In this document: in pieces, positions 7,313-28,554 of the stretch
How the letters are laid out: each line of letters begins with the position of its first letter
Position numbering within the stretch: the stretch's first letter is position 1
Source of the DNA: Maritimibacter sp. HL-12
Lineage (GTDB): Bacteria; Pseudomonadota; Alphaproteobacteria; Rhodobacterales; Rhodobacteraceae
Length of the DNA: 64,000 nt
Direction of reading: 5' to 3'
Assembly (NCBI RefSeq): GCF_900177545.1
Contig: NZ_FXBQ01000001.1
Span: 2,752,688 to 2,816,687 of the forward strand
Notes under the pieces: model-generated
What the model was told of the DNA's origin: nothing
Database searches by the model: none
Seen by the model: the letters and a program-made list of their open reading frames with translations, nothing else
Program-made: the position numbers and the translations under genes

Positions 7313-7379
7313 GATGAAACCTGCGGTTGTCTTTTTCCAACCTTATAGCCGAATAATGTGTCGGGTTCGTGACTCTGGA

Positions 7380-8087
7380 TCAGTCGTTTGCGAGACTGAG
7401 CGTTACCCGGTCGCCGGCGAACCACGTCAACCCGCGCTCGATCCGCAGCCCCTCGGGGGTGACATTGAGCGCCTCGGTGCGCAGCAGCGGATCGCCCTCG
7501 CGGACGCCGAGGTGCAGCGCCTGGGTCGGGCTGGCGCGTTCGGCGCTGACCCGGGTTTCGGCGCGCAGGTAGTCATCGACACCGCACCGCCGCAGCGCCT
7601 CGGTGACGGATGTCACTTCTGCCAGCGCGGCGGCGAGGCCGGGCAGGTGTTCGGCCGGAAAGGTGCTCACGAAATGCCCGAGCGCGGTGCCGTTGGCCAG
7701 CGACAGGCCCTCGTAGACCACCACCGCGGCGCCGGGCGCGAGGCCGAGTGCGGCGGCCTCCAGCGGATCGGCGGGGCGGGTCTCGACCCGGAGCACGCGC
7801 TTTTCCGGCAAGCGCCCGGAGGCGCGGATATTCTGGTGGAAGCGCACCCGGCGGCCGATCGGATAGTCCGTAGGCGTGGCGGTGACGAAAACCCCGGCAC
7901 CCCGGCGTGCCCGCACCAACCCGCGTTCGGCCATGTCGGAGAGCGCGCGGCGGACGGTATGGCGGTTCACCCCGAAACGCGCGGCGAGGGCGGCCTCGGT
8001 GGGCAGCTTGTCGCCGGGGCGATAATGCCCCGCGCCGATCTCGCCCTGGAGCGTCGTCGCGATCGAAGTCCAGACCGGGGTGCCCAT
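7380..8087 (-). CDS. phnF: PhnF, GntR/HutC-family phosphonate regulator
   Basis: This DNA-binding repressor has 235 aa. It has an N-terminal winged helix of the GntR type (residues 7-72, with LPTEAALAARFGVNRHTVRRAL) and a C-terminal UTRA ligand domain (about 90-230). It is divergent from phnG, separated by 105 bp that hold a Pho-box-like repeat and a GTnTAG-type motif. PhnF proteins repress phn genes and respond to phosphonates or phosphate-related ligands. It is probably co-transcribed with the downstream phnM and controls its own promoter. Confidence 0.88.
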   Translation of the reverse strand: MGTPVWTSIATTLQGEIGAGHYRPGDKLPTEAALAARFGVNRHTVRRALSDMAERGLVRARRGAGVFVTATPTDYPIGRRVRFHQNIRASGRLPEKRVLRVETRPADPLEAAALGLAPGAAVVVYEGLSLANGTALGHFVSTFPAEHLPGLAAALAEVTSVTEALRRCGVDDYLRAETRVSAERASPTQALHLGVREGDPLLRTEALNVTPEGLRIERGLTWFAGDRVTLSLAND

Positions 8088-8100
8088 GATCGGTTTCCTG

Positions 8101-8118
8101 GTGTCACCAAAATTTCAC
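8101..8118 (+). promoter_or_regulatory. Candidate Pho box in the phnF-phnG intergenic region
   Basis: Two 7-bp units GTGTCAC (8101-8107) and ATTTCAC (8112-8118) are separated by 4 bp, the PhoB-box geometry. The first matches the CTGTCAT consensus at five of seven positions, the second at four. It lies about 75-90 bp before phnG and just upstream of phnF, so it could serve either direction. Confidence 0.5.
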
Positions 8119-8149
8119 AAGACTCTGCGGCACGAATCTGCCAAAGATT

Positions 8150-8166
8150 TGTCTAGTTGTATAGGC
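8150..8166. promoter_or_regulatory. Candidate PhnF operator
   Basis: The sequence TGTCTAGTTGTATAGGC contains two direct GTnTAG half-motifs (GTCTAG at 8151 and GTATAG at 8159) and weak dyad symmetry CTA...TAG. HutC-subfamily regulators recognise GT-x-TA-x-AC-like sites, and a mycobacterial PhnF site contains GGTATAGAC. It sits 26 bp before the phnG start, a good place for repression. Binding is inferred only. Confidence 0.4.
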
Positions 8167-8192
8167 TGACCGAAATATCCACAAGGTATCGA

Positions 8193-8648
8193 ATGACCGG
8201 GACGACATTGGACATCGAGGCACGCAAGGGCTGGATGAGCCTGCTTGCGAAGGCCCCGCCCGCGCGGCTCGCCAGCCTTTTCGAGGAGGCCGGGGCAAGG
8301 CCTGGTTTCACCTGGCTTCGGCCTCCCGAGGTGGGGGGCGTCATGCTGCGCGGGCGTATGGGGGGCACCGGCGCGCCCTTCAACATGGGCGAGATGACCG
8401 TGACCCGCTGCGCGCTCAAGCTGGCGACCGGCGAGGTCGGGCATGGCTACGTGCAGGGTCGCGACAGGGCCCACGCCGAGCGCGCCGCGCTGGTGGATGC
8501 GCTGATGCAGACCGGCCGCGCCGACGAGCTGCGCGCCACGGTGCTCGCCCCGCTCGAAGCCGAGGCGCTGGTCGCCAGAACCTCGCGCGCGGCCAAGGCG
8601 GCGGCAACGCGGGTCGATTTCTTCACCATGGTTCGGGGAGAGGATTGA
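8193..8648 (+). CDS. phnG: C-P lyase core subunit PhnG
   Basis: This small subunit of the carbon-phosphorus lyase core complex has 151 aa. PhnG with PhnH, PhnI and PhnJ forms the (GHIJ)2 assembly, and with PhnI and PhnL it installs the ribose triphosphate on the phosphonate. The start MTGTTLDIEARKGWMSLLAKA fits the family N-terminus, and the C-terminal segment TRVDFFTMVRGED is characteristic. The ATG at 8193 is chosen over a TTG 36 bp upstream because it matches the conserved N-terminus. It is the first gene of the main C-P lyase operon; its TGA overlaps the phnH ATG. Confidence 0.92.
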   Translation: MTGTTLDIEARKGWMSLLAKAPPARLASLFEEAGARPGFTWLRPPEVGGVMLRGRMGGTGAPFNMGEMTVTRCALKLATGEVGHGYVQGRDRAHAERAALVDALMQTGRADELRATVLAPLEAEALVARTSRAAKAAATRVDFFTMVRGED

Positions 8649-9217
8649 TGCGGGACGATGTGCTCACCGGCGGATTTTCCGACGCCCCGGTTCAGTCCGC
8701 CCGGGCCTTTCGCGCAGCCCTCGATGCGCTGGCGCGGCCCGGCCGGATCGTGACGCTTTCGGGCGGTGCCGCGCCCGCGCCGCTGTCGACCGCCGCCGCA
8801 ACCCTGCTGCTCACGCTCTGCGATGGCGAGACGCCGCTATACCTTGCCCCCGGCCACGACGCGCCACAGGTGCGCGACTGGGTGGCCTTCCATATCGGTG
8901 CGCCGATTGTCGGCCCCGGCGAGGCGATGTTCGCGCTGGGCCGCTGGGCGGCGCTTGGCCGGCTCGACCACTACCCGGTCGGCACGCCGGACTACCCCGA
9001 CCGCTCGGCCACGCTGATCGTCGAGCTTGACCGCCTCGCGGCGGACGGTGCGCGTCTTACCGGCCCGGGGATCGCGACCGAGGCCCGGCTCTCGCTGCCC
9101 GAAACCGCGGCCTTCGAGGTCAACCGCACACGGTTCCCGCTGGGGCTCGATTTTTTCTTCACCGCGGGAACCGCGCTTGCCGCGCTGCCCCGCACCACGC
9201 GCGTGGAGGCTGGCTGA
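8648..9217 (+). CDS. phnH: C-P lyase core subunit PhnH
   Basis: This structural subunit of the C-P lyase core complex has 189 aa. It begins MRDDVLTGGFSDAPVQSARA and shows the PhnH pattern ALARPGR near residue 30 and the Gly/Pro-rich tail with FPLGLDFFF. PhnH resembles PLP-transferase folds but has no known cofactor; it scaffolds PhnG, PhnI and PhnJ. The ATG at 8648 overlaps the phnG stop and is preferred over an in-frame TTG one codon earlier. The stop overlaps the phnI ATG. Confidence 0.9.
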   Translation: MRDDVLTGGFSDAPVQSARAFRAALDALARPGRIVTLSGGAAPAPLSTAAATLLLTLCDGETPLYLAPGHDAPQVRDWVAFHIGAPIVGPGEAMFALGRWAALGRLDHYPVGTPDYPDRSATLIVELDRLAADGARLTGPGIATEARLSLPETAAFEVNRTRFPLGLDFFFTAGTALAALPRTTRVEAG

Positions 9218-10338
9218 TGTATGTCGCCGTCAAGGGTGGCGAGCGCGCCATCGACAATGCCCATGCCTGGCTTGCCGAGGAGCGCCGGGGCGATCCCGGC
9301 GTCGGCGAGCTTACGGTGCCGCAGATCCGCGAGCAGCTTTCTCTGGCGGTGAACCGGGTGATGGCGGAGGGCTCGCTCTACGACCCCGACCTGGCCGCGC
9401 TGGCGATCAAGCAGGCGCGCGGCGACATGATCGAGGCGATCTTTCTGATCCGGGCCTATCGCACCACGCTGCCGCGCATCGGCCACGCCAAGCCCGTCGA
9501 CACCGGCGCGATGGCCTGCGACAGGCGGATCAGCGCCACCTTCAAGGATGTGCCGGGCGGGCAGGTTCTGGGCCCGACTTTCGACTACACCCACCGGCTG
9601 ATCGACTTCGCCTTGGCCGCCGAGGGCGAGGCCCCGCGCTCCGAACAGGCAGACCCGTTGCCGGGCACGATGCCGCGTGTCACCGAGTATCTCAACCTCG
9701 ACGGGCTGATCCAGCCCGAGGCACCCTCTGATGACACACCGCCTGACATGACCCGCCAGCCGATGGAGTTTCCCGCCGGGCGGTCCTTGCGGTTGCAGGC
9801 GCTGACCCGGGGCGACGAGGGCTTCGTGCTCGGGATGGCCTATTCGACCCAGCGCGGCTACGCAAAGAACCACCCCTTCGTTGGCGAATTGCGGATTGGC
9901 ACGGTGGCGGTGGAGATCGACATCCCCGAGCTTGGCTTCGCGGTCGAGATCGGGGAAGTGGTGCTCACCGAGTGTGAAACCGTCAACCAGTTCACCGGCT
10001 CGAAGACCGAACCGGCGCAGTTCACCCGCGGCTATGGCCTCGTCTTCGGCCAATCGGAACGCAAGGCGATCTCGATGGCGCTGGTGGACCGCGCGTTGCG
10101 CTGGGCAGAGCTTGGCGAGGACAATCTCGGTGCCCCGGCGCAGGACGAGGAGTTCGTGTTGTCCCACGCCGACAACATCCAGGCGACGGGTTTTCTCGAA
10201 CACATCAAGCTGCCGCACTACGTTGATTTCCAATCCGAGCTGGAACTGGTGCGCCGGCTCAGGGCCGAGGCGCAGCAGGCCGGAACGTCCGCCGAGAGCG
10301 GCGGCACCGCTCCCCAAAGCGTGGAGGCGGCAGAATGA
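9217..10338 (+). CDS. phnI: C-P lyase core subunit PhnI
   Basis: PhnI has 373 aa and is the nucleosidase-like subunit. With PhnG, PhnH and PhnL it displaces adenine of ATP by the phosphonate to give ribose 1-phosphonate 5-triphosphate. The N-terminal MYVAVKGGERAIDNA is a family hallmark, and SGTs such as GYAKNHPFVGELRIG and VLSHADNIQATGFLEH are typical. The length matches the family (about 355-370). It overlaps phnH by 1 bp and the following HAD gene by 4 bp. The C-terminal 30 residues after about 345 are low-complexity and specific to this lineage. Confidence 0.93.
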   Translation: MYVAVKGGERAIDNAHAWLAEERRGDPGVGELTVPQIREQLSLAVNRVMAEGSLYDPDLAALAIKQARGDMIEAIFLIRAYRTTLPRIGHAKPVDTGAMACDRRISATFKDVPGGQVLGPTFDYTHRLIDFALAAEGEAPRSEQADPLPGTMPRVTEYLNLDGLIQPEAPSDDTPPDMTRQPMEFPAGRSLRLQALTRGDEGFVLGMAYSTQRGYAKNHPFVGELRIGTVAVEIDIPELGFAVEIGEVVLTECETVNQFTGSKTEPAQFTRGYGLVFGQSERKAISMALVDRALRWAELGEDNLGAPAQDEEFVLSHADNIQATGFLEHIKLPHYVDFQSELELVRRLRAEAQQAGTSAESGGTAPQSVEAAE

Positions 10339-16864: not shown

Positions 16865-18211
16865 CTATTGTTCCCGAAATGCGCGCGACATCGAGTCGGT
16901 GATCGGCTTGGTCAGGTATTGAAAGAAGGTGCGTTCCGTCTGCTGGATCATCACCTCGGCGGGCATGCCGGGGGTTGGCGAAAAACCACTGATCCGCGAG
17001 AATTCCTCGGGCGGGAGCCGGACCCGGGCCAGATAGAACTCTTGCGGCATGACCTTGGACTCGTCCGGCAGCGCATCGGCCGAGACATAATAGAGCGTGC
17101 CGTAGAGCACCGGGGTGGTGCGTTGGTTCAACGCCACGAGCCGGACGGTGGCCGATTGTCCGATCTTCACGCTGTCGATGTCGGTGCGCGGCAGCTTGGT
17201 TTCGATGATCAGTGGCGCATCGGCGGGCAGGATCTCCGCGATCGTCTTGCCGCTCTCGATCACGCCGCCGGGCGTGTTGTAGTTCATCCGCACCACGGTG
17301 CCGGCGACAGGTGAAAGGATCGCCGAGCGCCCATGCACTTCAAGCGCGCGGTTGTAGTTCTCGCGCACGGTATCGAGCTCGTTCTCGGCGGCTTGCAGCT
17401 CATCCAGAGCCGCCTTTCTGTGCTCGACGTAGACCTGCTCGATCTGCCGCTGGTGCTTGTCCATGAGCGCCTCGATCTCCTGTTTTTCGGCCACAAGCTG
17501 GCCGATCTGGCCGAGGCCATCGGCCTGTGCCCGGAACAGGGAATTGATCTGGGATCTCTGTGTCAGGCCCTTTTCGAGCAGCGTGCTCTGCGCGGTGATA
17601 TCTTCGTCGAGCAGGTCGATCTGGCGTTCCAGCGAGGTTTTCTTCGCCAGCATCCCGGTCTCGCGGCTTTTCAGCGCGAGAATGTTGCTTTCCAGCAGGC
17701 CGACATCCTTGGCGATCTTGGCTCGGGAGGACTCGAAAATGAGCCGCTGGTTGACGATGATCTGGTTCAAGGCAGGATCATCCGCGCTCCCATCGAGGAA
17801 GGCAGGCACGGCAAAGTCTTCGTCCCCGTTGTATTCGGCCAGAAGTCGGGCGGCGACGGTCTCAAGCCGGGCGCGACGCAGGTAGAGCTCGCGCAGTTTT
17901 GCCTGCGCAGCGGTCTTGTCGAGCTGGATGATGGGCTGCCCCTTTTTCACGCGGTCTCCCTCGGAAACCAGGATATCGCTGATGATTCCCCCTTCCAGGT
18001 GCTGGATCATCTGGTTGTTGCCGGTCGCCACGAAGGAGCCTTGCGTAATCACCGCTGCGGCCAGCGGTGCCATGAAAGCCCAGGCCCCGAAGCCGCCGAA
18101 GGAAATCAGCATCACGGTGATGCCGACAAAGGTCAGGCGCTTGATCGAGCGGGGCACCTCGGAAAACCAGCGAGCTTCGGCAGGGGGTTCGTGATAGGTG
18201 ACTACGGTCAC
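16865..18211 (-). CDS. HlyD-family type I secretion adaptor
   Basis: This membrane-fusion protein of a type I secretion system has 448 aa and links the inner-membrane ABC exporter to a TolC-type outer channel. It has a short cytoplasmic N-tail and one membrane segment at about residues 26-50. A lipoyl/beta-barrel half follows (HLEGGIISDILVSEGDRVKKG), then a long alpha-helical coiled-coil at about 100-290 and the returning lipoyl half (AILSPVAGTVVRM). The C-terminus PGMPAEVMIQQTERTFFQYLTKPI is a hallmark of the PrtE/HlyD subgroup. It starts 23 bp after the ABC gene stop, so both are one operon. The outer-membrane protein is not adjacent. Confidence 0.93.
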   Translation of the reverse strand: MTVVTYHEPPAEARWFSEVPRSIKRLTFVGITVMLISFGGFGAWAFMAPLAAAVITQGSFVATGNNQMIQHLEGGIISDILVSEGDRVKKGQPIIQLDKTAAQAKLRELYLRRARLETVAARLLAEYNGDEDFAVPAFLDGSADDPALNQIIVNQRLIFESSRAKIAKDVGLLESNILALKSRETGMLAKKTSLERQIDLLDEDITAQSTLLEKGLTQRSQINSLFRAQADGLGQIGQLVAEKQEIEALMDKHQRQIEQVYVEHRKAALDELQAAENELDTVRENYNRALEVHGRSAILSPVAGTVVRMNYNTPGGVIESGKTIAEILPADAPLIIETKLPRTDIDSVKIGQSATVRLVALNQRTTPVLYGTLYYVSADALPDESKVMPQEFYLARVRLPPEEFSRISGFSPTPGMPAEVMIQQTERTFFQYLTKPITDSMSRAFREQ

Positions 18212-18234
18212 GGGTGGTTCCTCCGATCAGTGGG

Positions 18235-20277
18235 TCAGGTCCGGTTGTCGGTGATGCTGCCGCCGCCTTGCCCCCGCTTGTCGCCGGACAGCGACTTGAG
18301 CACATCTTCGCGGGCCCCGATCATCGCGACGGAGCCGTTGGCAAGCAGCAAGATCTTATCGACATGTCCCAGCAACGAGGGCTTCTGGGTCACGGCGACA
18401 ACGGTAATGCCCTGGTCCTTGGCGTGTTGCAGCGCGCGGGCCAGCGCTTGGTCGCCGGCCACGTCGAGGTTCGAGTTGGGTTCATCCAGCACCAGCAGCC
18501 GCGGCGAGCCGAAAAAGGCGCGCGCCAGCGCGATGCGCTGTTTTTGCCCGCCCGACAAGGGCGCGCCATCGGCGGCAACGATGGTTTCGTAGCCGTGTGG
18601 CAGGTTCGCGATCATTTCATGGACATCCGCCAGCTTGGCGGCCTGATAGATCTCTTCATCGGTCGCATCGCTTCGCATCCGCGCGATGTTGTCCTTGATC
18701 GTGCCGGGGAAGAGTTGCACGTCCTGCGGCAGGTAGCCGATGTTCTCGCCGAACTGGCGCTGATCCCAGTTGCGCAGATCCATGAGGTCGAGCCGGACGC
18801 AGCCCGAGGTGGGCAGGATGGCCCCGACCAGCATCTTGCCCAGCGTGGTCTTGCCCGCACCGGAATTGCCGATCACCGCAAGCGATGTGCCGGGGGCAAG
18901 GCTGAAGCTGACGCCGTTCAACACCACGCTCTTGGTGCCCTGCGGGACATAGAGCAGGCGCTCCACATCGAGCCGGCCTTCGGGGCTTGGCAAGAGCAGC
19001 CGTTCGTGATTGAGCGGCGATGCCTTCAGCAGATCCGAGATCCGCCCATAGGAGGCGCGGGACAAAATGAACTGGTTCCAGCCTTCGATGGCCCCTTCGA
19101 TCGGCGCCAGTGCGCGGCCGGCGATGATCGAGGCGGCGATGACCATGCCGCCGGTGATCTGCCCTTCGATTGCCAGGAACGCACCCCACCCCAACATGCT
19201 CACCTGCGTCAGCAAGCGCACGCCGCGAGAAAACGCGGCCGAAGTGATGTTGCGGTCCTGCGCCCGGACCTGTGCGGTCAGTGACGCCGCGGTATCGCGC
19301 CCCCAGATCGAGACCGCCTCGGGGATCATCGCCAGAGCATTGATGATCTGGCTGTTTCGCGACATCGAATCGAGGTGCATGTTGGCCATGCTCTGATGCC
19401 GGTTGGCGACGGTGAATGGCCCGGAGGTCATGCGCTGGTTGATCAACGCGATAACCAGCAGCAGCAGGGCCGTGGCCACCACGATGAGCCCGAGTTGAAA
19501 ATGGATCAGGAAGATCGCCAGCACAAAGAGCGGGGCGAAGGGCGCATCGAGAAACGCCAGGAGCGTGCCCGACACCAGAAAGCTGCGCAATTGCTGCAAA
19601 TCGCCCAAGGTCTGGTATTCGCGCCCGTTGCTGGCGAGCGCGGCGCGGGCAGCGGCGCTCAGGATCGAAGAGCCCAGCCGCGCCGCCAGTTCCACCGCGG
19701 TGCGCATCAGCACGAACCGGCGCATCGCGTCGAAGAACGCCTGCAAGACGACCGCGCCGACGATGACGGCGGTGAGCATGATCAGCGTGTCGACCGACCG
19801 GCTGGTCAGAACCCGGTCGGAAATCTGGAACAGGTAGATCGGGATCGCGAGGATCAGGATGTTGGTCGCGCAGCTGAACAGCATCACGATGGAAAGGTTT
19901 CTGCGTACCGCGGCAAGCCCGGCCTTGAGATCGCCCGAGAAATCGACCGGGCCGGTCCGGCGGTGAAAATGTGCGCCACCGCCGCCACCGCCGCCGCCCT
20001 TGCCGCCGCCGCCTCCGGCGGGGGGCTGGTTGCCCGAGTCCGGCCGTGCGATGGGGGCGGTTGGCACCTCCTTGGCGTCAATCACCTTCGCATCCGAGAT
20101 CCGGGGCGTGTCGGGGGCCGGTTTGGTTCGCGCCGCCGGCTTCTCCGGCCTGGACCGGCCGTCACCGTCGAGGCGCTGATGGGGCTGCAGGGTCAGAATG
20201 CCCGGCCTGCGCCGCTTGGCGCTGTGGTTTGTGGCGGCGGGATCCCCCGGTTCGGCCAGTTTGGTCTGCTTGTTCAT
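18235..20277 (-). CDS. Type I secretion ABC exporter with Gly-rich N-terminal extension and altered H-loop
   Basis: This PrtD/HlyB-type exporter has 680 aa. A disordered, Pro- and Gly-rich cytoplasmic region of about 115 residues (with a run of Gly around 88-101) precedes a six-helix membrane domain (about 128-400) and an ATPase domain. Walker A GNSGAGKT is at 470-477; LSGGQKQR and LLVLDEPNSNLD follow. The H-loop, normally THR or AHR, reads VAVTQKPSLL, so the switch His is Gln631. The Walker B Glu is present. There is no C39 peptidase domain, so substrates are probably not cleaved at a double-Gly site. It lies 31 bp downstream of the 639-aa repeat protein. Confidence 0.92.
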   Translation of the reverse strand: MNKQTKLAEPGDPAATNHSAKRRRPGILTLQPHQRLDGDGRSRPEKPAARTKPAPDTPRISDAKVIDAKEVPTAPIARPDSGNQPPAGGGGGKGGGGGGGGAHFHRRTGPVDFSGDLKAGLAAVRRNLSIVMLFSCATNILILAIPIYLFQISDRVLTSRSVDTLIMLTAVIVGAVVLQAFFDAMRRFVLMRTAVELAARLGSSILSAAARAALASNGREYQTLGDLQQLRSFLVSGTLLAFLDAPFAPLFVLAIFLIHFQLGLIVVATALLLLVIALINQRMTSGPFTVANRHQSMANMHLDSMSRNSQIINALAMIPEAVSIWGRDTAASLTAQVRAQDRNITSAAFSRGVRLLTQVSMLGWGAFLAIEGQITGGMVIAASIIAGRALAPIEGAIEGWNQFILSRASYGRISDLLKASPLNHERLLLPSPEGRLDVERLLYVPQGTKSVVLNGVSFSLAPGTSLAVIGNSGAGKTTLGKMLVGAILPTSGCVRLDLMDLRNWDQRQFGENIGYLPQDVQLFPGTIKDNIARMRSDATDEEIYQAAKLADVHEMIANLPHGYETIVAADGAPLSGGQKQRIALARAFFGSPRLLVLDEPNSNLDVAGDQALARALQHAKDQGITVVAVTQKPSLLGHVDKILLLANGSVAMIGAREDVLKSLSGDKRGQGGGSITDNRT

Positions 20278-20308
20278 AGTACCGCTGCCAGTGAGTTTGT
20301 GGTTTCAA

Positions 20309-22228
20309 TCAGGCGACCATGCCGCCCATCGGATCATTGCCCAGTTCGTCGTCGCTGACGTAGCCGGTGTAGCCCTCGCTGTTGTCACCGGGCTGCATTT
20401 CGCTGCCATCCATGAGAAAGGCCACGGCTTCACTCACGAGGCCGCCTTCGCCGCCGGCGAGGAGATCGCTGTCTTCGGTCACGATCAAACCGGCCTGGTG
20501 CATCAGCGCGTCGGAATAGGCCTCGCCGTTGACGTGGATCTCGGAGTCGACGCCGAATTCGGAAATGGCCGCGATATTGATGAGCGCGTTCGCCCCCGCA
20601 ATCAGGCCCGCCCCGCCACCGCCGCCGGCCAGGAACACCTGATCGGAGTCGGAAACGATATTGACCTGATCTATGATCTGAAGGTTGATCAGATCGCCGT
20701 CGATGTAGAGCACGCTCAGGACGTCGTCGCCGGCGAATGCCTCATGCGCGCGGATGCTTTCGGGCACCGCGTCGGAGCCTTCGGCGAGGCTGGTGACGAA
20801 GGCATCGAAGTCCGATGACATCTGGTGGTAACTGTCGACGCCGATCGAGGTTATGCTGGCCTGGTTCCAGAGCACGTTGTCATTGCCGGAAACCGACCAC
20901 GCGTCATCGTCGGGGTAGGTGATGAAATCGTCGTCCAGCAGCACGTTCATCTGGTTGATCATGCTGACGTTGATGATGCCGCCGCCGACCACGATCAGAT
21001 CGTATTGAAAGCTCATCGCCAGAAGGCTGGCGGCATTGACCGCCAGGTTGCCGCCGCTCTCGATGAACGTCCCGTGTGACGAAAGCTCCAGGCTCACCAT
21101 GTCGTTGTCGTTGACCAGGTTCTGTTGCAGCAGGTAGTTGAAGTTGACCACGTTGCCATCCAGGCGCACCACGGATGCGAAGGATGGAATGCCGGGAAGG
21201 TCGCCGCCAGCCGCTTCCGGATCATCTGACGAGGCGGCGAGGCTCAGGATCGAGGCGATACTGCTGATCGTGTTGCCCTCCGCCCCCGGGCCGTTCAGCG
21301 CACCGTTGATCATGTCGAGGTCGCTGATCACGTTGGTCTGGCTGATGCTCGACAACGACAGGCTGTCACCCATCACCGCGATCACCGGCGCGTCGGCCAG
21401 GGAATAGGAGACATGGGCCTGATTGACGATGGTGTTGCCGCCGGTGATCACGTCGTGGGCCGGGCCGACATCATCGTCTTCCTCGGGCAGTTCGGGCAGG
21501 GCGGCTTCAAGATCGGGGACGATATCCGTGGCTTCGCCATCGACATGGGTGCCGACGGCCTGGTCGCCGGTCAGAACGACCACCTTGGCCGAGGGCGGGC
21601 TTGCCGCGGCTTCATAGCTGGTGACCGCGTCGAAAATCTCGTGGGCTGTCGTGGCCATCGCGTCGCCGCTTTCCGGCACATCGGGAACCATTGGGCCGGC
21701 CAGGTTGCCGGACGCTCCCACCAACCATTCAAGTGCCAGTGACTGTGCAACCGGCGACACAAGCTCACCGGGTGTCATCCCGATGAGTATATCGGAATCC
21801 AGGAGCAGGTTCTGTTGCACGACAACCGCCGCGAAGGACGACGGCGGCGGCGGTGGTTGAATGATGAATTTGACAGAATACCCGGATGGCAGCGCCGCAT
21901 AGGGCTCGACCGGGCCGATCGGAAAATCGCCATTCCAGATATACGGCACTGACGGGTCGAATTTTGATTTCAGCAAAACGGATGTCGGCATGAACCGATC
22001 AGGCAAGGGCAGGAGTGGTAATTTGTAGGAAATACCCGGATCGAAACTCACCAAGTTCAATGGTGCCGATACGTGAATATTTATGTTTGGAAGTCCGACG
22101 CCCTCGTCGTATTCGGGGCCCTCGCGTTCAAACGGATCGTGATCGGTGCGCAGCCGGGCTTGCTCGGTAACCTGATTGAATGAACCAATAAAATGGGCAA
22201 TTGCTTCAGTTGTGAGATCAAAGGCCAT
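20309..22228 (-). CDS. Large repeat protein, candidate type I secretion substrate
   Basis: I do not recognise a named family for this acidic 639-aa protein. Five copies of a strict Q-x-N-x3-D-x-D motif are visible at residues 138, 297, 368, 426 and 521, with a degenerate one at 578. Four fuller repeats (about 280-330, 353-405, 409-465, 505-562) read hydrophobic strand, Gly-Asp turn, QxN motif, Asp pair, then G-x-N-x-h-N-x-A. This alternation suggests a beta-rich, possibly calcium-binding fold. There is no Sec signal peptide. It sits directly before the exporter genes and after the 556-aa Gly-rich protein with which it shares a module, so export by this system is likely but inferred. The C-terminus is acidic and Gly/Met-rich. 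Confidence 0.75.
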   Translation of the reverse strand: MAFDLTTEAIAHFIGSFNQVTEQARLRTDHDPFEREGPEYDEGVGLPNINIHVSAPLNLVSFDPGISYKLPLLPLPDRFMPTSVLLKSKFDPSVPYIWNGDFPIGPVEPYAALPSGYSVKFIIQPPPPPSSFAAVVVQQNLLLDSDILIGMTPGELVSPVAQSLALEWLVGASGNLAGPMVPDVPESGDAMATTAHEIFDAVTSYEAAASPPSAKVVVLTGDQAVGTHVDGEATDIVPDLEAALPELPEEDDDVGPAHDVITGGNTIVNQAHVSYSLADAPVIAVMGDSLSLSSISQTNVISDLDMINGALNGPGAEGNTISSIASILSLAASSDDPEAAGGDLPGIPSFASVVRLDGNVVNFNYLLQQNLVNDNDMVSLELSSHGTFIESGGNLAVNAASLLAMSFQYDLIVVGGGIINVSMINQMNVLLDDDFITYPDDDAWSVSGNDNVLWNQASITSIGVDSYHQMSSDFDAFVTSLAEGSDAVPESIRAHEAFAGDDVLSVLYIDGDLINLQIIDQVNIVSDSDQVFLAGGGGGAGLIAGANALINIAAISEFGVDSEIHVNGEAYSDALMHQAGLIVTEDSDLLAGGEGGLVSEAVAFLMDGSEMQPGDNSEGYTGYVSDDELGNDPMGGMVA

Positions 22229-22286
22229 CTGATTGCCCCACCCGGTGGACAGTTAAATACACGTGATTGTTTTTGGTTTGACGGTG

Positions 22287-22312
22287 GCCTGCGCGACCAA
22301 GGTCGCGCAGGC
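22287..22312 (+). terminator. Strong hairpin with T-run on the plus strand between the two candidate substrates
   Basis: A perfect 12-bp inverted repeat (GCCTGCGCGACC, 2-nt centre, complement) is followed on the plus strand by GGCTTTTTCTT. As a Rho-independent terminator it faces right, against the direction of the flanking minus-strand genes. On the minus strand it has no T-run and would act only as an intercistronic RNA hairpin between the 556-aa and 639-aa genes. Confidence 0.6.
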
Positions 22313-22335
22313 TTTTTCTTCATTCGGACAATGAC

Positions 22336-24006
22336 TTACGTCATGTCGTCTTCGCCCACCAAGGTCGAGGAGAGCGAGCCGCCGACAACGGTCATGTCAA
22401 CCGTGTTGCCCAGGATGTTGGCACCCTGCACGATATCCATGTTGAAGGCCGAGGTATCGACAACGGCGGATGCCTGGGCTTCCGACAGGCCGTTGACGTA
22501 GCCGTCATCGCCGTTGTGGGAGCCCCACATCCCGCCGTGGCCGGCTGCACCGCCATCGCCGGAGGTGGCATTGCCGGCTGATCCGCCGCTACCACCAACC
22601 GCAAGGGCTTTGCCGCCCATGGCCATGCCGCCACCGGCCATGCCACCGTCGCCGCCCATGGCAAAGGCTTTGCCGCCATGGCCGCCGTCGCCGCCTTCGC
22701 CGTAGCCGCCGCCGACACCGATGCCGTGGCCGGCACCAAAGCCGAGGCCTTCGCCACCGGTGGCGTTACCGGTATTGCCGCTGTTGCCGCCGTCGCCGCC
22801 AGATCCGGCACCTCCGGCCGCGCCGGCACCGCCTGCGCCACCATCACCGGCATCGCCAGCCGCCGCGTCCGCCGCGGCATCTGCTGCGGCGTCAGCCGCA
22901 AATCCGGCCAGGCCGCCGCCGCCGGCTGCAGCGGCCGCTGCAGCACCGTGGGCCGCCGCAGCTCCGCTTCCGCCGGTCGCGCCGGGCGCGCCGTCGCCGC
23001 CTTCGGCACCATCACCGCCATCGCCGGTACCACCGGTACCCGTGGAGCTGTGGTTGTTGCCCTCTGCGCCAACGCCGACGCCGACACCCAGGCCGCCAAG
23101 GCCTACGCCGGTGCCGCTCCCGGCGCCGCCGTCGTCGCCGTCGCCGCCTTTGGCCATCGTGTGGCCGCCATTGGCACCGTGTCCACCGCCTGCAACGGCA
23201 CCGCCGGCGAAGGCCGCGGTATGACCGCCATTGCCGCCGTTGGTGGAGGCACCACCGCCACCTTCACCACCTTCCGGCTGGGCTTCGATGCCCTCGTCGG
23301 ACGTCGCGGTGCCGCCATGGGCACTGCCCTGCTGCTGGAAGTTGGAATTGTTGTGGACCTGCGGGTTGCTGAGCTCGTCATTGTCGTGCAGCGTCGCCGA
23401 CTGGGCAATGACCGTTCCGGCATCGTTGCCGCTACCGTTCAGCGCACCTTCGAGAACATCCTTCAGGCTGATGTCGTTTCCGGCACCGTTCGAGTAGTTC
23501 ACCGAACCACCCTTCTGGGCCATCAGGATATCGCCGGTCGAGCTGCCCCCGGACAGATCGAAATCGGCGAAATCGTCGTCAGAAGGCAGCCCATCGAGGC
23601 CAACACCCACGTCCACTTTCACGTCAGTTTTCACGTCAGTTTTCACGTCAGTGTCGTTGACGTTTTTCGCGTAATTGTACGCATCATTGTCCGCAGTGTT
23701 GTACGCATCATTGTCCGCAGTGTTGTGCGCATCATTGTCCGCAGTGTTGTGCGCATCATTGTCCGCAGTGTTGTGCGCATCGTTGTCGGCGGTGTTGAGC
23801 GCATCATTGTCCGCGGTGTTGTTTGCGGTGTTGTCGTTGTCAATGTCGTTGTCAATTTCGTTGTCAATGTCGTTGTCATTGACGTTGTCATTGTCATTGT
23901 CATTCTTGTTGACGTTTTTGGAACCCTTGCCGCCACTGACGTTGGGACCGACGCCGACAACGTTGCCGGCACCGAAAAGGATATTGTTGTTTTTGAACAC
24001 ACTCAT
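22336..24006 (-). CDS. Asn/Asp-repeat and glycine-rich protein, candidate type I secretion substrate
   Basis: This 556-aa low-complexity protein is of no named family known to me. It has a short start (MSVFKNNNILFGAGNVVGVG), an Asn/Asp-rich stretch (31-62), six tandem NTADNDAx units (63-110) and TDVK repeats (119-131). A middle module holds Q202-S-A-x3-D-N-D, matching the 639-aa protein. A Gly/Ala-rich PGRS-like region covers about 246-505, and the C-terminus ends in AFNMDIVQGANILGNT and an acidic tail. There is no Sec signal. GGAG lies about 8 bp before the ATG. It is the first gene of the putative secretion operon, divergent from the LuxR-type regulator. A surface or biofilm matrix role is a guess. 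Confidence 0.75.
   Translation of the reverse strand: MSVFKNNNILFGAGNVVGVGPNVSGGKGSKNVNKNDNDNDNVNDNDIDNEIDNDIDNDNTANNTADNDALNTADNDAHNTADNDAHNTADNDAHNTADNDAYNTADNDAYNYAKNVNDTDVKTDVKTDVKVDVGVGLDGLPSDDDFADFDLSGGSSTGDILMAQKGGSVNYSNGAGNDISLKDVLEGALNGSGNDAGTVIAQSATLHDNDELSNPQVHNNSNFQQQGSAHGGTATSDEGIEAQPEGGEGGGGASTNGGNGGHTAAFAGGAVAGGGHGANGGHTMAKGGDGDDGGAGSGTGVGLGGLGVGVGVGAEGNNHSSTGTGGTGDGGDGAEGGDGAPGATGGSGAAAAHGAAAAAAAGGGGLAGFAADAAADAAADAAAGDAGDGGAGGAGAAGGAGSGGDGGNSGNTGNATGGEGLGFGAGHGIGVGGGYGEGGDGGHGGKAFAMGGDGGMAGGGMAMGGKALAVGGSGGSAGNATSGDGGAAGHGGMWGSHNGDDGYVNGLSEAQASAVVDTSAFNMDIVQGANILGNTVDMTVVGGSLSSTLVGEDDMT
23677..23820 (-). repeat. 24-bp tandem repeat array encoding NTADNDAx
   Basis: Six consecutive 24-bp units encode NTADNDA followed by L, H, H, H, Y and Y. 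Units 2-6 are nearly identical at the DNA level (core CATTGTCCGCAGTGTTG on the plus strand), so the array can expand or contract by slippage without shifting frame. It is flanked by a shorter 12-bp repeat (ACGTCAGTTTTC type) at about 23610-23650 encoding KTDV. Confidence 0.9.
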
Positions 24007-24690
24007 TGGATTTTCTCCATGTGAGGCATCCGATCGTCACCGCTCTGTTACAAGTGACATGGTTTCGGATGCGATTGGTTTCCAGTTGTTTTCGTGATCG
24101 GGCCTCGATGACGAAAACTCGGTCATCGCAAAGCCCGTTGTCTCAAGATGAATCGTCCCTGGTTGCTCCCTTTCCTTTCTCGGGGGCAGGAGCATCCGAA
24201 GAGCGTGGTGCTTCAGGCAGGAGCCGGCGGTTTCCAGTTGAGAAATCCGGCAAGGCCCAGCGCGATCCCTTCGGCAATTGCTGTCCCCCGTTTGGGTCTG
24301 CACAACTTCGTGCACCTCAAAGGATGAGAGGGAATCAGGCCGCGAAAATAGCCAACACTTCGGAATAGATATGAAAGTGAGGAGAAAGATTATTAATTCC
24401 ATGAGATTAAATGGGAGCGATTCGTACCTTCGTACTATGCGCTCTGAACCTCAGGAATACCTGGACTAGCCAGATTGGAGGGGGCAGGGACGTACCCAAA
24501 AGGATTAGATATACAACTTCCGGATGAATTATATCGATCAATTGGTTAAAAAAACGACGGCGGAAGCCGTTCAATCGTTGTTATGAACCTGCTTCAATGC
24601 TACGATCCTCGTTCTCTACCAGATCAATATCGAGATTGATTTCGGCAAAACCCATCGAGCGGTGCAGAGTTTTGTTTGGGGGGCATTGCA
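24007..24690. other. 684-bp divergent control region of the secretion locus
   Basis: No convincing gene is seen here; the short open frames overlap on both strands and lack family features. The region is AT-richer than its surroundings, mainly at 24340-24560. A 12-bp direct repeat GGTTTCCAGTTG occurs at 24077-24088 and 24229-24240. A short TCGTAC repeat with 2-bp spacing lies near 24420. It must contain promoters for the minus-strand secretion operon and for the plus-strand LuxR-type gene. Confidence 0.6.
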
Positions 24691-25452
24691 ATGGGTCAGT
24701 TGGATGACGCGTGGGGTCATTCCTCCACCGAGTATCTAAGCGTGGGCCGTTCATCACGGGGCGTCATAGCGCTGGTTTCCGGCAACCAGACGTTTTCGGA
24801 GCGGCTTTGCCGCGTGACCGAAGCGGAAGTCGACAAGGTCGAGGTCAGTCGTCACGACTCCGTCGACCAGGTGATCGAAACCTTGCCGATGTGGCGTGAA
24901 CGATTGCGCCTGGTCGTACTTGACGAAACCGCGGCCGGAAAACTCGACACCGCTGTTTCGAGCTGGGTGCAAGACCAGTCCGCCGCAAGGATTGCCTGCG
25001 CCTATTGCGACGTCGACCGGGTCCGGCAAGTGTTTGCCAACGGCTGTTACCCGGCCGCGATTTCGAGCTTCTTTCCGCTCAACCTGAGTTTCGATGCCTG
25101 GATCTCGATGCTGAAGCTGTGCCTTTCGCGGCATACCTACGTGGCGACCGAACTGATCGAGGCGCTCTCCACGCTGCCGGGACTCCAGGGCGCACCGCCG
25201 AACCGGGCCAAGGCGTTCGCGAATGCAGAATCCGCATCCTGGCCGTCTTCGGGAAACAACCTGAACCGGCTGACACAGCGCGAGATCGAGGTTCTGAAAC
25301 ATGTGGCGGAAGGCTATCAGAACAAGGTGATCGCGGCCAAGCTGGGGCTTTCGGAGAACACGGTGAAACTGCACATGCACCACGTCATTACCAAGCTGGG
25401 TGTGCACAACCGGACGGAAGCTGCAATGATCTATGCCACCGCGAAAACCTGA
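24691..25452 (+). CDS. LuxR-type response-regulator-like transcription factor
   Basis: This 253-aa DNA-binding regulator has a C-terminal LuxR/GerE helix-turn-helix at about residues 193-250 (LTQREIEVLKHVAEGYQNKVIAAKLG in two parts, then SENTVKLHMHHVITKLG). The N-terminal half (24-150) looks like a degenerate receiver domain, with hydrophobic strands VIALVSG and LRLVVLDE where Asp78 could be the phosphoacceptor. The usual acidic pair and Lys are not obvious. The ATG at 24691 is preferred over a TTG 15 bp upstream. It is divergent from the secretion operon and overlaps the next gene by 20 bp, so it is the likely local regulator. Confidence 0.85.
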   Translation: MGQLDDAWGHSSTEYLSVGRSSRGVIALVSGNQTFSERLCRVTEAEVDKVEVSRHDSVDQVIETLPMWRERLRLVVLDETAAGKLDTAVSSWVQDQSAARIACAYCDVDRVRQVFANGCYPAAISSFFPLNLSFDAWISMLKLCLSRHTYVATELIEALSTLPGLQGAPPNRAKAFANAESASWPSSGNNLNRLTQREIEVLKHVAEGYQNKVIAAKLGLSENTVKLHMHHVITKLGVHNRTEAAMIYATAKT

Positions 25453-25954
25453 AACCCCGCCGCAAGGCAAGGAAGCGGCCCTGCGGGAAATGTTTCTGCG
25501 CGTGGGGCAACTGAACTTCAACTGGACCAATACCGAAAGCCTGTTCATCCACCTGATCGCCGGACTTGCGGACGTCGACAAGGACGTGGCGATTGTCATC
25601 TTCCTCACCCTGAACACCACGAGCGCCCGGCTCGACCTGGTTGACCGGCTGGCCAAGTTGTCACGCACACCGCAGGCGCAACGCGACGCAATCCTCGAAC
25701 TGACAACGCGCTTTCGCAAGGAATCCTCGCTGCGCAACAAGTACAATCACTGTATCTATTCCTTCGATCCCGAAGGTGGCCAGCTGAACACCATCATGAT
25801 GCGGATCGCCGACCGCAAGAACCGCATCCTGGTCGGCAAGCAGGAAGTGGCGGATGCGCAAGAGGTCGCCAACATCGACGCGACGATCGAACGCCTGAAG
25901 CAACTCAACCTCGATATCTGGCAAACGGTCGCCCGTTTCGGATACCCGATCTGA
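25433..25954 (+). CDS. Small protein with HEPN-like R-N-x3-H motif
   Basis: This 173-aa, mostly alpha-helical, soluble protein is of no family I can name. Residues 101-106 read RNKYNH, matching the R-x4-H (RNxxxH) motif of HEPN-domain ribonucleases; it follows a helix with FRKESS, as in many HEPN proteins. An N-terminal helix NWTNTESLFIHLIAGL and a C-terminal helix rich in Leu/Glu complete a possible four-helix bundle. The ATG lies inside the end of the LuxR-type gene (20-bp overlap), so the two are translationally coupled. Function could be RNA cleavage or simply a structural HEPN-like bundle; similarity is by motif only. Confidence 0.65.
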   Translation: MPPRKPETPPQGKEAALREMFLRVGQLNFNWTNTESLFIHLIAGLADVDKDVAIVIFLTLNTTSARLDLVDRLAKLSRTPQAQRDAILELTTRFRKESSLRNKYNHCIYSFDPEGGQLNTIMMRIADRKNRILVGKQEVADAQEVANIDATIERLKQLNLDIWQTVARFGYPI

Positions 25955-26205: not shown

Positions 26206-26279
26206 TGGAGGCGAGTACCGGAATCGAACCGGTGTGCACGGATTTGCAATCCGCTGCGTAACCACTCCGCCAACTCGCC
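26206..26279 (-). tRNA. tRNA-Cys (GCA)
   Basis: Read on the minus strand, the sequence folds as a complete tRNA. It has a 7-bp acceptor stem GGCGAGT/ACTCGCC, a D-arm, an anticodon loop GATTGCAAAT with anticodon GCA, the T-loop GGTTCGATTCC, discriminator T and an encoded CCA (26206-26208). A single gene is seen with no neighbouring tRNAs. The adjacent open frames on both strands are shadows. Confidence 0.96.
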
Positions 26280-26443
26280 GAAGTTGGCGCGGATGTAGCC
26301 CAAGCGTGGCGGCTTCGCAAGAGCCGTGATCTGTCGCCGGGATGCCTCGGTACCAGGCGCAGGCGACAGGGCGTGTTGCGGGCGGCCCGGAATCGTGGCA
26401 AGACAACGTCATCCGCGTCAAAGGCAATCCGGCAGGTTCCGAC

Positions 26444-27097
26444 ATGAGCGATTTCCAGGCCCTTCGAACCATGATGGTCGATACTCAGGTGAGGCCTTCG
26501 GATGTGACCAGATACCCCGTGATCGGGGCGATGCTGGCGGTGCCTCGCGAGGCTTTTGTGCCGGATGGACTGCGCGCTGCGGCCTATGCCGATACGGCGG
26601 TCGATCTTGGTGCCGGCCGTGCCATGCTCGAACCCCGCACCTTCGCCAAGATGCTCGACGCGCTCGAAATCGGCTCCGGGGAACTGGTTCTCGATCTGGG
26701 CTGCGGACTTGGCTATTCGGCGGCGGTGATCGCGCGCATGGTGGATTTCGTTGTCGCGCTGGAACAGGACGAGGCGATGGCTGCCGAGGCCGAAACCCGC
26801 CTCGGGGCGCAAGGTGTTGACAATGTGGCTGTCATTTCGGGCCGCCTTCGCGATGGCGACGCAAAGCACGGGCCCTATGATGCGATCGTCGTCGAGGGCG
26901 GTGTGGAGAGGCTGCCCGCGGGACTCGTCGATCAGCTCAAGGACGGAGGCCGGATCGCGGCGATCTTTGCCGACAACCGGGCCGGCGCATTGCGGATCGG
27001 GCAGAAATGGGGCGACCATGTCGATTGGCGCTTTGCCTTCAACGCGACCGCCCCGGTGTTGCCCGGTTTTGAAAAAGTGACGGAATTTGCGCTGTAG
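26444..27097 (+). CDS. pcm: Protein-L-isoaspartate O-methyltransferase family protein
   Basis: This cytosolic SAM-dependent methyltransferase has 217 aa. PCMT-family methyltransferases repair isoaspartyl residues. The N-terminus MSDFQALRTMMVDTQVRPSDVT is the alphaproteobacterial form, the SAM motif I is LVLDLGCGLGYSAAV, and YDAIVVEGGVERLP is the later motif. It directly precedes tolC, an order conserved in Rhodobacterales. The ATG at 26444 is chosen because the 34 residues further upstream are unlike the family. Members of this subgroup lack some canonical PCMT substrate residues, so the exact activity is less certain than the fold. Confidence 0.85.
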   Translation: MSDFQALRTMMVDTQVRPSDVTRYPVIGAMLAVPREAFVPDGLRAAAYADTAVDLGAGRAMLEPRTFAKMLDALEIGSGELVLDLGCGLGYSAAVIARMVDFVVALEQDEAMAAEAETRLGAQGVDNVAVISGRLRDGDAKHGPYDAIVVEGGVERLPAGLVDQLKDGGRIAAIFADNRAGALRIGQKWGDHVDWRFAFNATAPVLPGFEKVTEFAL

Positions 27098-27147
27098 CGC
27101 GTTAAGCATCGCGTGCGATCAATGCCGGTGCCTGAGGGACGTTTGGA

Positions 27148-28554
27148 ATGCGAAAGACATTGAGACGGATTGCTGCCGCGGCGCTGACATCGGCGCTGCT
27201 CCTCGCCCCGGTGGCTTCAAGCGCCGAAAGCCTGTCTGACGCGCTGGTTTCGGCCTACCGCAACTCCGGCCTGCTCGACCAGCAACGCGCGCTCCTGCGG
27301 GTGCGCGACGAAGACGTGGCGGTGGCCGTGGCCGCCACCCGCCCGGTGCTGAATTACGCGCTGAGTTCGACCTGGAACCTGAACAACAGCGGGGGCGTGG
27401 TGACGACCTCGCTCACCAACAGCCTCACGCTGTCGTCCAGCCTCACGATCTACGATTTCGGCCGTAGCCAGATGCGCATCGACCTCGCGCGTGAAAACGT
27501 GCTGATGACGCGCGATGCGCTGGTCGGGGTCGAGCAGAACGTGCTGCTGCGCGCCGTTCGCGCCTTCCTCGATGTGCGCTCGGCGCACGAAACCGCGTTG
27601 CTTCAGGCCAACAACGTGCGGCTGATCACCCAGGAACTGCGCGCGGCGCGGGATCGGTTCGAAGTCGGCGAGATCACCCAGACCGACGTGTCGCTGGCCG
27701 AAGCCGCCCTGGCGGCGGCAAAAAGCGCCGAGGCGTCGGCCCGCGGCCAACTGATGGTCGCGCGCGAGGAATACAAGGCTGCGATCGGCCATTATCCAGA
27801 CGGGTTGCAGGTGCCGCCGGCTGCGCCGCTCGCCGCGCGCAGCCTCGACGAAGCCAAGGCGATGGCCCGCAGCCGTCATCCCGATGTGCTCTCGGCCCGC
27901 CGTTCGGTCACCGTGGCGGAAATGTCGACCGAGCTTGCCCGCCGCGCGATGCTGCCCACCCTGTCGGCCGAAGCAAGGCTTGGCGCCAGCATCACCGATC
28001 CGTTGAACATACCCGGCACGACCGCGTCGCGGACCGCGCAGGCGGGAGTGACCCTGTCGGGGCCGATCTACCAGGGTGGCAAGCTGTCTGCGCTTTTCCG
28101 CCAGGCGAAGGCGCAGACCGAGGCTTCCAGGGCCGCGCTGCACATCGCGGCGCAGGGCGTTGAACAGGAGGTTGCCAATGCCTGGGCGCAGCTTGCGGTG
28201 GCGCAAGCCAGTCTGCAAGCCTCCGATCAGCAGATCCGCGCCAACCAGGTTGCGCTGCGCGGGGCGCGCGAGGAGCAATCGCTTGGCACCCGCACCACGC
28301 TCGACGTTCTGAACTACGAACAGGATCTTCTTGACGCGCAAGCGGCAAGGATCCGCTCTCAGGCCGACCAGTATCTCTCGGTTTACAGCCTGCTCGCGGC
28401 AATGGGGATGCTGACCGCCGATCACCTCAAGCTCGGGATCGCCACCTATGATCCGGAGGCATATTTCCGCGCGGTGAAAGATGCGCCGGTGTTCGAGGTG
28501 AGCCCGCAGGGCGAGCGTCTCGATTCCGTGCTGGAGGCGCTCGGGCGCAAATAA
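27148..28554 (+). CDS. tolC: TolC-family outer-membrane efflux protein
   Basis: This trimeric outer-membrane channel of type I secretion and efflux systems has 468 aa. A signal peptide (1-26, cleaved near SSAES) precedes two tandem OEP repeats of long helices and beta-strands. Typical pieces are DALVSAYRNSGLLDQQRALLRVRDED, split by helices, and LGTRTTLDVLNYEQDLLDA near residue 390. It lies about 9 kb from the type I ABC and HlyD genes and is the only TolC seen, so it is the likely partner of that system as well as of general efflux. The ATG follows pcm by 50 bp. Confidence 0.92.
   Translation: MRKTLRRIAAAALTSALLLAPVASSAESLSDALVSAYRNSGLLDQQRALLRVRDEDVAVAVAATRPVLNYALSSTWNLNNSGGVVTTSLTNSLTLSSSLTIYDFGRSQMRIDLARENVLMTRDALVGVEQNVLLRAVRAFLDVRSAHETALLQANNVRLITQELRAARDRFEVGEITQTDVSLAEAALAAAKSAEASARGQLMVAREEYKAAIGHYPDGLQVPPAAPLAARSLDEAKAMARSRHPDVLSARRSVTVAEMSTELARRAMLPTLSAEARLGASITDPLNIPGTTASRTAQAGVTLSGPIYQGGKLSALFRQAKAQTEASRAALHIAAQGVEQEVANAWAQLAVAQASLQASDQQIRANQVALRGAREEQSLGTRTTLDVLNYEQDLLDAQAARIRSQADQYLSVYSLLAAMGMLTADHLKLGIATYDPEAYFRAVKDAPVFEVSPQGERLDSVLEALGRK

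Follow-up and report, generated by a model that had tools for sequence, protein, structure and literature searches.

A conserved type I secretion block in Maritimibacter sp. HL-12 with two unnamed acidic protein families, a covarying leader RNA hairpin and an HEPN-like protein

Which proteins leave the cell through a type I exporter whose neighbouring genes encode unnamed proteins, and why should an HEPN-like gene travel with it? The question is raised by six genes within a stretch of 64,000 nucleotides (nt) of Maritimibacter sp. HL-12, referred to here as the window (C2:2752688-2816687 of a 3.6-Mb genome). The minus strand carries, in this order, the genes for two proteins that we call S556 and S639 (after their lengths in amino acids, aa), for an ABC exporter and for an HlyD-family adaptor; divergently, on the plus strand, lie those for a LuxR-type regulator and for the HEPN-like protein, which overlap by 20 nt. 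A preliminary description of this DNA had placed the six genes at 16865-25954, where we have found all of them, and had seen in them an uncharacterised type I secretion locus with separate control, perhaps for a new class of surface or matrix material. The first part of this view is supported, and the block recurs in 80 loci, with the qualification that the LuxR-type gene is less constant (55 of 80); secretion of the two proteins and a surface or matrix role are likely. New with respect to that description are a conserved RNA hairpin before the S556 gene and a stem-loop between S556 and S639. The conserved block, the co-occurrence of its genes and the covarying hairpin, taken together, lead us to a dedicated type I secretion module with probable RNA-level control. 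In the fuller reading that we adopt tentatively, and hold to fall somewhat short of an even chance, the exporter would secrete the two acidic proteins and the HEPN-like protein would set the level of S556 via the hairpin. No description of the locus, or of a link between HEPN proteins and type I secretion, was found among open-licence papers.

The first part of the answer comes from the constancy of the block. A scan of genome contigs for S639 gave 361 pattern matches, 253 of which are S639 relatives, and from these the 80 best loci were taken for comparison; genes in them were counted by a rescan with hidden Markov models, except for S556, which was counted by phmmer. S639 was present in 80, ABC in 79, HlyD in 78, the HEPN-like gene in 70 and the LuxR-type gene in 55 loci, and S556 in 78, plus one (L058) exposed later through the RNA model described below. 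ABC is missing only in L046 and HlyD in L046 and L074, always at contig ends, and the last locus without S556 (L085) lies on a contig that starts about 300 nt before S639. The HEPN-like gene is absent from ten loci (L019, L025, L052, L070, L074, L075, L076, L081, L085 and L094), all of them on contigs whose first nucleotide falls within S556, under 500 nt upstream of that gene or, for L085, after it. Since the misses of exporter, S556, S639 and HEPN-like genes all fall at contig ends, we consider these genes one conserved block. In line with this, the pairwise distances of S639 correlate with those of the HEPN-like protein (r 0.88), ABC (0.82) and HlyD (0.89), with 0 of 999 permutations as high, although correlations of that size can arise from common descent alone. 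The LuxR-type gene is more variable, with no match in 15 of the 70 loci that have the HEPN-like gene (two of these, L028 and L033, are cut upstream) and, in L031, a sole match that is weak and located elsewhere. The HEPN-like gene is the most constant accessory of the block, more so than the regulator gene. The order S639-ABC is kept in 79 and ABC-HlyD in 78 of the 80 loci; in seven of them (L027, L028, L031, L033, L034, L082 and L089) the HEPN-like gene is placed after HlyD, as it is on pSymB of Sinorhizobium meliloti Ak57 (L099). Outside the block conservation ends: five of the six flanking genes of the window are found in none of the 80 loci and the sixth (PIMT) in one. Other neighbours recur little: genes of a generic ABC ATPase cluster turn up in 23 loci, though at scattered places, an outer-membrane protein (treated below) in 12 and an acetyltransferase-TPR protein (one member tested) in 7; the remaining ones appear in five or fewer. 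S639 homologues away from any type I exporter, which the preliminary description had suggested looking for, did not turn up, as 79 of the 80 adjoin ABC and the remaining one sits at a contig end; the secretion reading has survived this comparison.

The two genes were also followed through a family sample of 296 genomes, one per genus. Of these, 28 (counting the own genome) have S639 and 29 the HEPN-like gene, namely the same 28 plus one (G261) whose contig ends 284 nt beyond the HEPN-like gene; each of the 28 has both genes on one contig, no more than about 7 kb apart. This bears on the idea that a toxin or phage-defence gene has merely hitchhiked here, since toxin-antitoxin and defence systems often contain HEPN proteins (PMC4621449). 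We find the idea barely credible given that, bar the one contig end, the gene is absent from sampled genomes without S639, that three members of the family gave no match in PADLOC, and that no nucleotidyltransferase antitoxin gene stands beside it in the window, where its neighbours are the LuxR-type and PCMT genes.

In wider samples S639 was present in 14 of 397 genomes of the phylum, all 14 from the same class, and in 4 of 387 genomes of the class, the own genome being included in both counts. On plasmids, 32 records carry S639, and these are the same accessions (compared by eye) as the 32 records with at least 60% identity, among the matches listed, to the ABC protein of Sulfitobacter, so that the neighbourhood comparison gave the same result here. 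The next plasmid record among the matches listed, from Bradyrhizobium sp. 195, has 50% identity and a different large gene at the place of S639; this related ABC-HlyD pair with a 3.8-kb gene upstream (L126:4107-11081) perhaps represents another substrate class. No S639 was found in phage records. Two genomes of the same genus (G003 and G005) have full blocks, in versions only 29-36% identical, which implies either horizontal transfer of the block or an old origin followed by patchy loss. The module is patchy in its distribution and also plasmid-borne. With S639 as phmmer query, 90 proteins, the query included, were listed at E<=0.001. Their named genera are ones that we take to belong to the Rhodobacterales and Hyphomicrobiales; for the Sulfitobacter and Sinorhizobium relatives the order is shown by their records. 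Several relatives are annotated at NCBI as type I secretion protein. The homologue on a Sulfitobacter faviae plasmid (L100:7083-9191) is called a type I secretion protein ATPase, a misleading name, and sugar-nucleotide and glycosyltransferase genes adjoin the block there.

How the module might be controlled is best seen in front of S556, where the end of the intergenic region is conserved in close relatives. Here (24026-24072 on the minus strand, with the model match at 24012-24082) lies a hairpin whose arms differ between species yet stay complementary, next to the likely ribosome-binding site of S556, GGAG at 24015-24018 (minus strand). A first automatic finder chose wrong stems and was replaced by 34 hairpins picked by eye from the leaders, 31 of which were aligned (L040, L043 and L059 were left out, their folds looking different). 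RNAalifold on these 31 leaders found the inner stem, with double changes in four of its five pairs. In the 11-pair structure 81.1% of the cells are paired, versus 62.1% in shuffled alignments and 29-47% in slid controls, with 94 double-change cells versus 37.9 and a covariation of 0.568 versus 0.258 (none of 500 shuffles as high), figures that are inflated by the choice of these rows by eye for complementarity. For that reason matches outside the model were counted apart and weigh more. A search with the RNA model over 92 sources (1.76 Mb) gave a single match at E<=0.003 in each of 59, among them 28 that had no part in building the model, and 8 further matches at E 0.04-1. In the 28 unused rows, which include L040, L043 and L059 as well as many close relatives of model rows and are aligned to the model, a procedure that leans towards the structure, 84.0% of the cells are paired versus 65.1% shuffled, with 74 double changes versus 23.5 (again none of 500 as high). 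The model alignment of all 67 matches (65 distinct) has a covariation of 0.547 versus 0.246, and the loop, rich in A and G, measures 13-14 nt in 60 of the 65.

Among the 70 loci with the leader in hand (ten of the 80 are cut), 56 match at E<=0.003 and five at 0.06-0.98, and the model finds nothing in the other nine, nor in L099, L101 and L129-L135. Of the 62 matches examined in the 80 loci, 59 have their end near the S556 start codon, at most 20 nt past it or 18 nt short of it (the choice of start favours closeness to the hairpin), and a tetramer resembling a ribosome site stands 4-16 nt before the start in 55 of these 59 leaders (a count that has no chance control). The three exceptions are L058, where S556 was read by eye; L022, where two S556-type genes stand in tandem (6531-9870) and the hairpin was found only in front of the second; and an additional, weak match of L029. 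A hairpin taking in the ribosome site itself was considered as a general feature and is kept as a remark only (29 of 55 versus 28% expected). The own genome has one clear copy (E 1.9e-9; the next match is at E 0.14). Of the 296 family genomes, 39 have a match at E<=0.01. In 19 of these, all with S639, it lies within the module and in 20 elsewhere, G145 being the one S639 genome among the latter. The top ten (E<=2.2e-5) all belong to the module, some of them scoring the same as model loci and perhaps being the same strains, while all outside matches are at 4.3e-5 or weaker and are probably chance, given how rough the E-values are. Rfam has no family for the hairpin: at gathering score only tRNA was found, and one chance-level match to a long non-coding RNA (E 1.9) lies outside it.

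The S556 leader carries, then, a covarying RNA hairpin against its ribosome-binding site, and RNA-level control of S556 is probable; what the covariation shows is the structure. Could the same letters be a DNA operator, a dyad bound by the LuxR-type regulator? The place would suit one, since a divergent intergenic region ends there and a gene of LuxR type is close by. In an operator, nevertheless, the arms should be kept and the loop vary, the reverse of what is seen, and the hairpin sits by the ribosome-binding site and occurs also in loci with no LuxR match (for instance L027, L034, L041, L056, L065, L084, L089 and L095). Further, the inner helix has 35 G-U cells against a single A-C cell, and all helices together 69 and 23 against 107 and 71 in shuffles, figures that indicate selection for pairing on the S556 strand as RNA rather than for symmetry of the DNA. 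We regard the operator as very improbable.

A second structure, a GC-rich stem-loop of 11 bp (22287-22312, minus strand), lies between S556 and S639. A first control for such stems, with too low a threshold, was often equalled by shuffles and was replaced by a test at 10 bp or more: stems of that length are found in 65 of 78 S556-S639 gaps, compared with 1.7% of mononucleotide shuffles; the 31 S639-ABC gaps that were measured contain no such stem. Standing after S556, the stem-loop likely makes S556 more abundant than S639.

If the leader hairpin is read by a protein, the best candidate within the block is the HEPN-like protein (173 aa; 25433-25954, plus strand), which we recognise by locus comparison, co-occurrence, motif and structural model. 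It has 2,097 homologues at E<=0.001, and the 120 listed have no Pfam domain. The HEPN motif that had been pointed out in this gene is there, as RNKYNH at residues 101-106: over 70 aligned rows the first position is R in 66 and K in 4, and N102 and H106 are invariant. With a polar residue after the R, this is the Rx4-6H motif of the HEPN superfamily; N33, E35, R66, R72 and K75 are kept as well. The model is a helix bundle (mean predicted local distance difference test score, pLDDT, 81.3) with the motif at the end of the helix 81-105, a low-confidence beta stretch after it and a last helix at 142-169. When folds are compared, HEPN chains fall among generic bundles and not above unrelated ones. 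No Pfam profile of HEPN families matches the window protein at E<=1, and the 23 families matched by the 70 members at E<=0.1 include no HEPN family. A profile comparison with HepT (PF01934) seeds from 61 genomes of the order yielded one sub-threshold match and was dropped. As the motif is kept and the structure comparison is not decisive, we name the protein HEPN-like and not HEPN.

The protein would act on the leader hairpin, with its A/G-rich loop of 13-14 nt, by binding or cutting. The link is drawn because both go with the module, and we hold it possible, if rather doubtful. The strongest rival keeps the module and makes of the HEPN-like protein a non-catalytic cytosolic helper (a chaperone or adaptor, either of the unfolded substrates or of the LuxR-type regulator), with the hairpin read by something else, such as a small RNA, a general RNA-binding protein, temperature or the ribosome. 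That its gene comes after HlyD, with the strand shared, in several genomes, and after LuxR in others, fits a pathway helper, as do the change of R101 to K and the lack of a HEPN family match; on the other side, the invariant N102 and H106 with R or K at 101 are the pattern of a catalytic HEPN site, and no other dedicated candidate for handling RNA was seen in the block. This rival too is less than probable, though to be taken seriously. One observation weighs against the pairing of HEPN-like protein and hairpin that we prefer, and favours the helper. The HEPN-like gene is present where no hairpin is detectable in L099, L101, L129-L132, L134, L135 and nine of the 80 loci, which speaks against strict pairing, or else the RNA has diverged there.

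What is secreted? S639 (20309-22228, minus strand) is recognised by its homologues, repeats, composition and C-termini, and S556 (22336-24006, minus strand), Gly/Asn-rich and Cys-free, by locus comparison, C-termini and composition. The preliminary description had called both unnamed, non-RTX and of low complexity. The first two points hold: neither has a Pfam match at E<=1 or anything meaningful in NCBIfam, and the genome's 44 matches to RTX repeats (calcium-binding nonapeptides, PF00353) all lie outside them. Low complexity is right for S556 and wrong for S639, which has diverged repeats of about 60 aa, four clear and one partial. The segments 250-340, 346-405, 406-470 and 500-560 align mutually (hhalign probability 67.5 to 98.8%) and 120-200 aligns partly with the other repeats (51 to 94%); segment 560-610 was tried as a further repeat and, at 41% at most, not counted. 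The family has invariant Q, N, D and G positions, and its proteins have 3.27 copies each of QxNxxxDxD, a motif whose third place may be N or Q, versus 0.025 in shuffled ones. Searches of the PDB with the S639 and HEPN-like alignments gave nothing below E 0.1. S556 starts with a variable N/Q-rich part, followed by a conserved core (DDDFAD plus a stretch with Q...DND), by a Gly-rich middle that differs greatly in length between relatives and by a conserved C-terminus of 60 aa. The Devosia protein (L058) lacks most of the Gly-rich part, and on pSymB of S. meliloti Ak57 (L099:7307-7903) the open frame is just 199 aa. A single phmmer query with S556 found one distant match only, probably because many of its words fall in low-complexity parts, and the family was collected via the loci around S639. 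Common ancestry of S556 modules and S639 repeats is not claimed (hhalign probability at most 42%).

Both families are acidic (median isoelectric point, pI, 4.05 for each) and poor in Cys, Lys and Arg; Cys is absent from 77 of 78 S556 and 45 of 81 S639 proteins. As to signal features, conserved C-termini were observed. The S639 of the window, Cys-free and with pI 4.05, ends in D-P-M-G-G-M-V-A, and its family mostly has D plus hydrophobic residues there (for example DVMQTMLA). Such acidic-plus-hydrophobic C-termini are known from serralysins exported by PrtD systems, which the S639 ends resemble. RTX proteins, too, are type I substrates with acidic, Gly/Asp-rich repeats, a likeness to S556 and S639 that stops at the RTX repeat itself. 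Composition and ends thus fit type I substrates, and S556 and S639 are likely two new, acidic, Cys-poor families of secreted proteins. They could instead be intracellular or membrane-associated, with the exporter moving something else, as the Cys in 36 of the 81 S639 proteins and the conserved N-terminal segment of S639 might suggest. We consider this improbable in view of the gene order, kept in nearly all loci, the co-occurrence with one exporter clade on plasmids, and the acidity and scarcity of Cys, Lys and Arg. Export through ABC, HlyD and a TolC-type channel is, judging by adjacency, acidity, scarcity of Cys and acidic-then-hydrophobic ends, very probable. Once outside the cell, S556 and S639 may well assemble into fibrous or adhesive material, an outcome that we favour by a little.

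The exporter itself leaves little doubt. The ABC protein (680 aa; 18235-20277, minus strand) scores 694.9 bits against TIGR01842 (PrtD type; cut-off 510.15) from residue 121, and the HlyD protein (448 aa; 16865-18211, minus strand) 378.4 bits against TIGR01843 (cut-off 208.65); these scores agree with the identities first given to them and make the pair, by profile, the ABC exporter and HlyD adaptor of a type I system. The ABC proteins have a variable Gly-rich N-terminal extension ahead of the exporter domain (eight N-termini compared), of about 120 aa in the window protein. The same genome has a second PrtD-type exporter above the cut-off (G000:C2:1161844-1163457). The block has no gene for an outer-membrane channel. 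A TolC-family gene (PF02321; 27148-28554, plus strand) lies outside it, a housekeeping neighbour that is probably the third component of the exporter: it is in none of the 80 loci, and it follows the PCMT gene (26342-28554, plus strand, for the two) as in the PIMT/TolC pair that is adjacent in all 11 compared loci of relatives (L103-L113). A family of outer-membrane efflux proteins adjoins the block in 12 of the 80 loci (PF02321 in one member tested). In R. leguminosarum an exporter with no known substrates nearby, RL0072/RL0071 (toaDE), appears in the available part of PMC2275737, and may or may not equal the exporter here.

The regulator (24676-25452, plus strand, or from 24691, the ATG of codon 6, where the chosen starts of relatives align) is of LuxR/NarL type, with a C-terminal LuxR helix-turn-helix (PF00196) and a receiver-like N-terminal region. 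In the latter a P is invariant (55 of 55; alignment columns 133-134 for this P and the residue before it) and preceded by L, F, I or V instead of the K that is usual in receiver families, and for lack of this K the protein is probably a regulator with a degenerate receiver that is not normally phosphorylated. It likely controls the AT-rich, likely regulatory region between the divergent operons (24007-24690), whose stretch up to the first possible start (24007-24675, about 670 nt) has a G+C of 0.495 versus 0.661 for the window and a similar length in many relatives. Curli control by CsgD offers a parallel, with a LuxR-family regulator with an atypical receiver, a long divergent intergenic region and RNA-level control of a matrix system; the csgD leader is reportedly controlled by a small RNA (PMC3465796). 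Exporter and substrates are others there, and the hairpin here is on a substrate gene, not on the regulator gene.

Beyond the HEPN-like gene, a tRNA-Cys gene (26206-26279, minus strand) directly adjoins the block. In a genome of the same genus without S639 match (G004) there is, by eye, an apparent P-type ATPase gene on that side of tRNA-Cys. Insertion of an island at tRNA-Cys is not claimed; the idea rests on adjacency and on this gene, and no search for att repeats was made.

Where does the module belong among known systems? It has the exporter of type I secretion, lacks RTX repeats and cannot be filed as a toxin-antitoxin system. Its working principle is closest to those of BapA-BapBCD and PrsDE. 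In Paracoccus denitrificans, an alphaproteobacterium, a very acidic simple-repeat protein needed for biofilm, BapA, is encoded directly upstream of type I exporter genes, going by the portion of PMC5588039 at our disposal. BapA differs in its 2,211 aa with 891 Asp-Ala repeats and in the adjoining outer-membrane gene bapD, and that portion names no S639-like partner, HEPN-like gene or leader hairpin. PrsDE of rhizobia (with the substrates Rap, Ply and NodO; see also PMC9298526 and PMC5061743) is likewise a type I exporter that moves adhesion and matrix proteins and, according to the part of PMC2275737 consulted, serves at least 13 proteins from diverse genome regions, unlike the two adjacent non-RTX families with one exporter clade found here. 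For the HEPN-like protein the likeness is to the HEPN toxin SO_3166 (HepT) of Shewanella, with R-N-x3-H at a helix end (RNIAVH there, RNKYNH here), whose R, N and H are reported critical for toxicity in the accessible part of PMC4621449. SO_3166 has an antitoxin partner and toxicity, whereas the protein here has a secretion module, no adjoining nucleotidyltransferase and a low-confidence beta stretch after the motif.

The meaning of the finding lies partly in the HEPN-like protein and partly in what it accompanies. HEPN proteins are known mainly as toxins and as defence and CRISPR nucleases, and the inheritance of one together with an exporter of proteins suggests that it takes part in ordinary gene control. 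For this question the covarying leader hairpin is a concrete target, reducing it to one protein and one RNA of 71 nt. At its boldest, and on balance unlikely, the HEPN-like protein would be a secretion-dedicated HEPN ribonuclease that cuts or clamps a purpose-made leader hairpin and so matches the synthesis of an extracellular polymer to its exporter. If true, it would be the first HEPN protein in protein secretion, the leader would be the first among those of type I substrates to have a reader of its own, and S556 and S639 would be two new families of exported matrix proteins, spread as one cassette through two bacterial orders. In any event S556 and S639 define unnamed families in Rhodobacterales and rhizobia, some members of which carry no better annotation than type I secretion protein, or even ATPase. 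Since the families are unnamed and so poorly annotated, the six-gene block, carried by marine and soil alphaproteobacteria, likely adds an overlooked surface or matrix system in bacteria of marine and plant environments.

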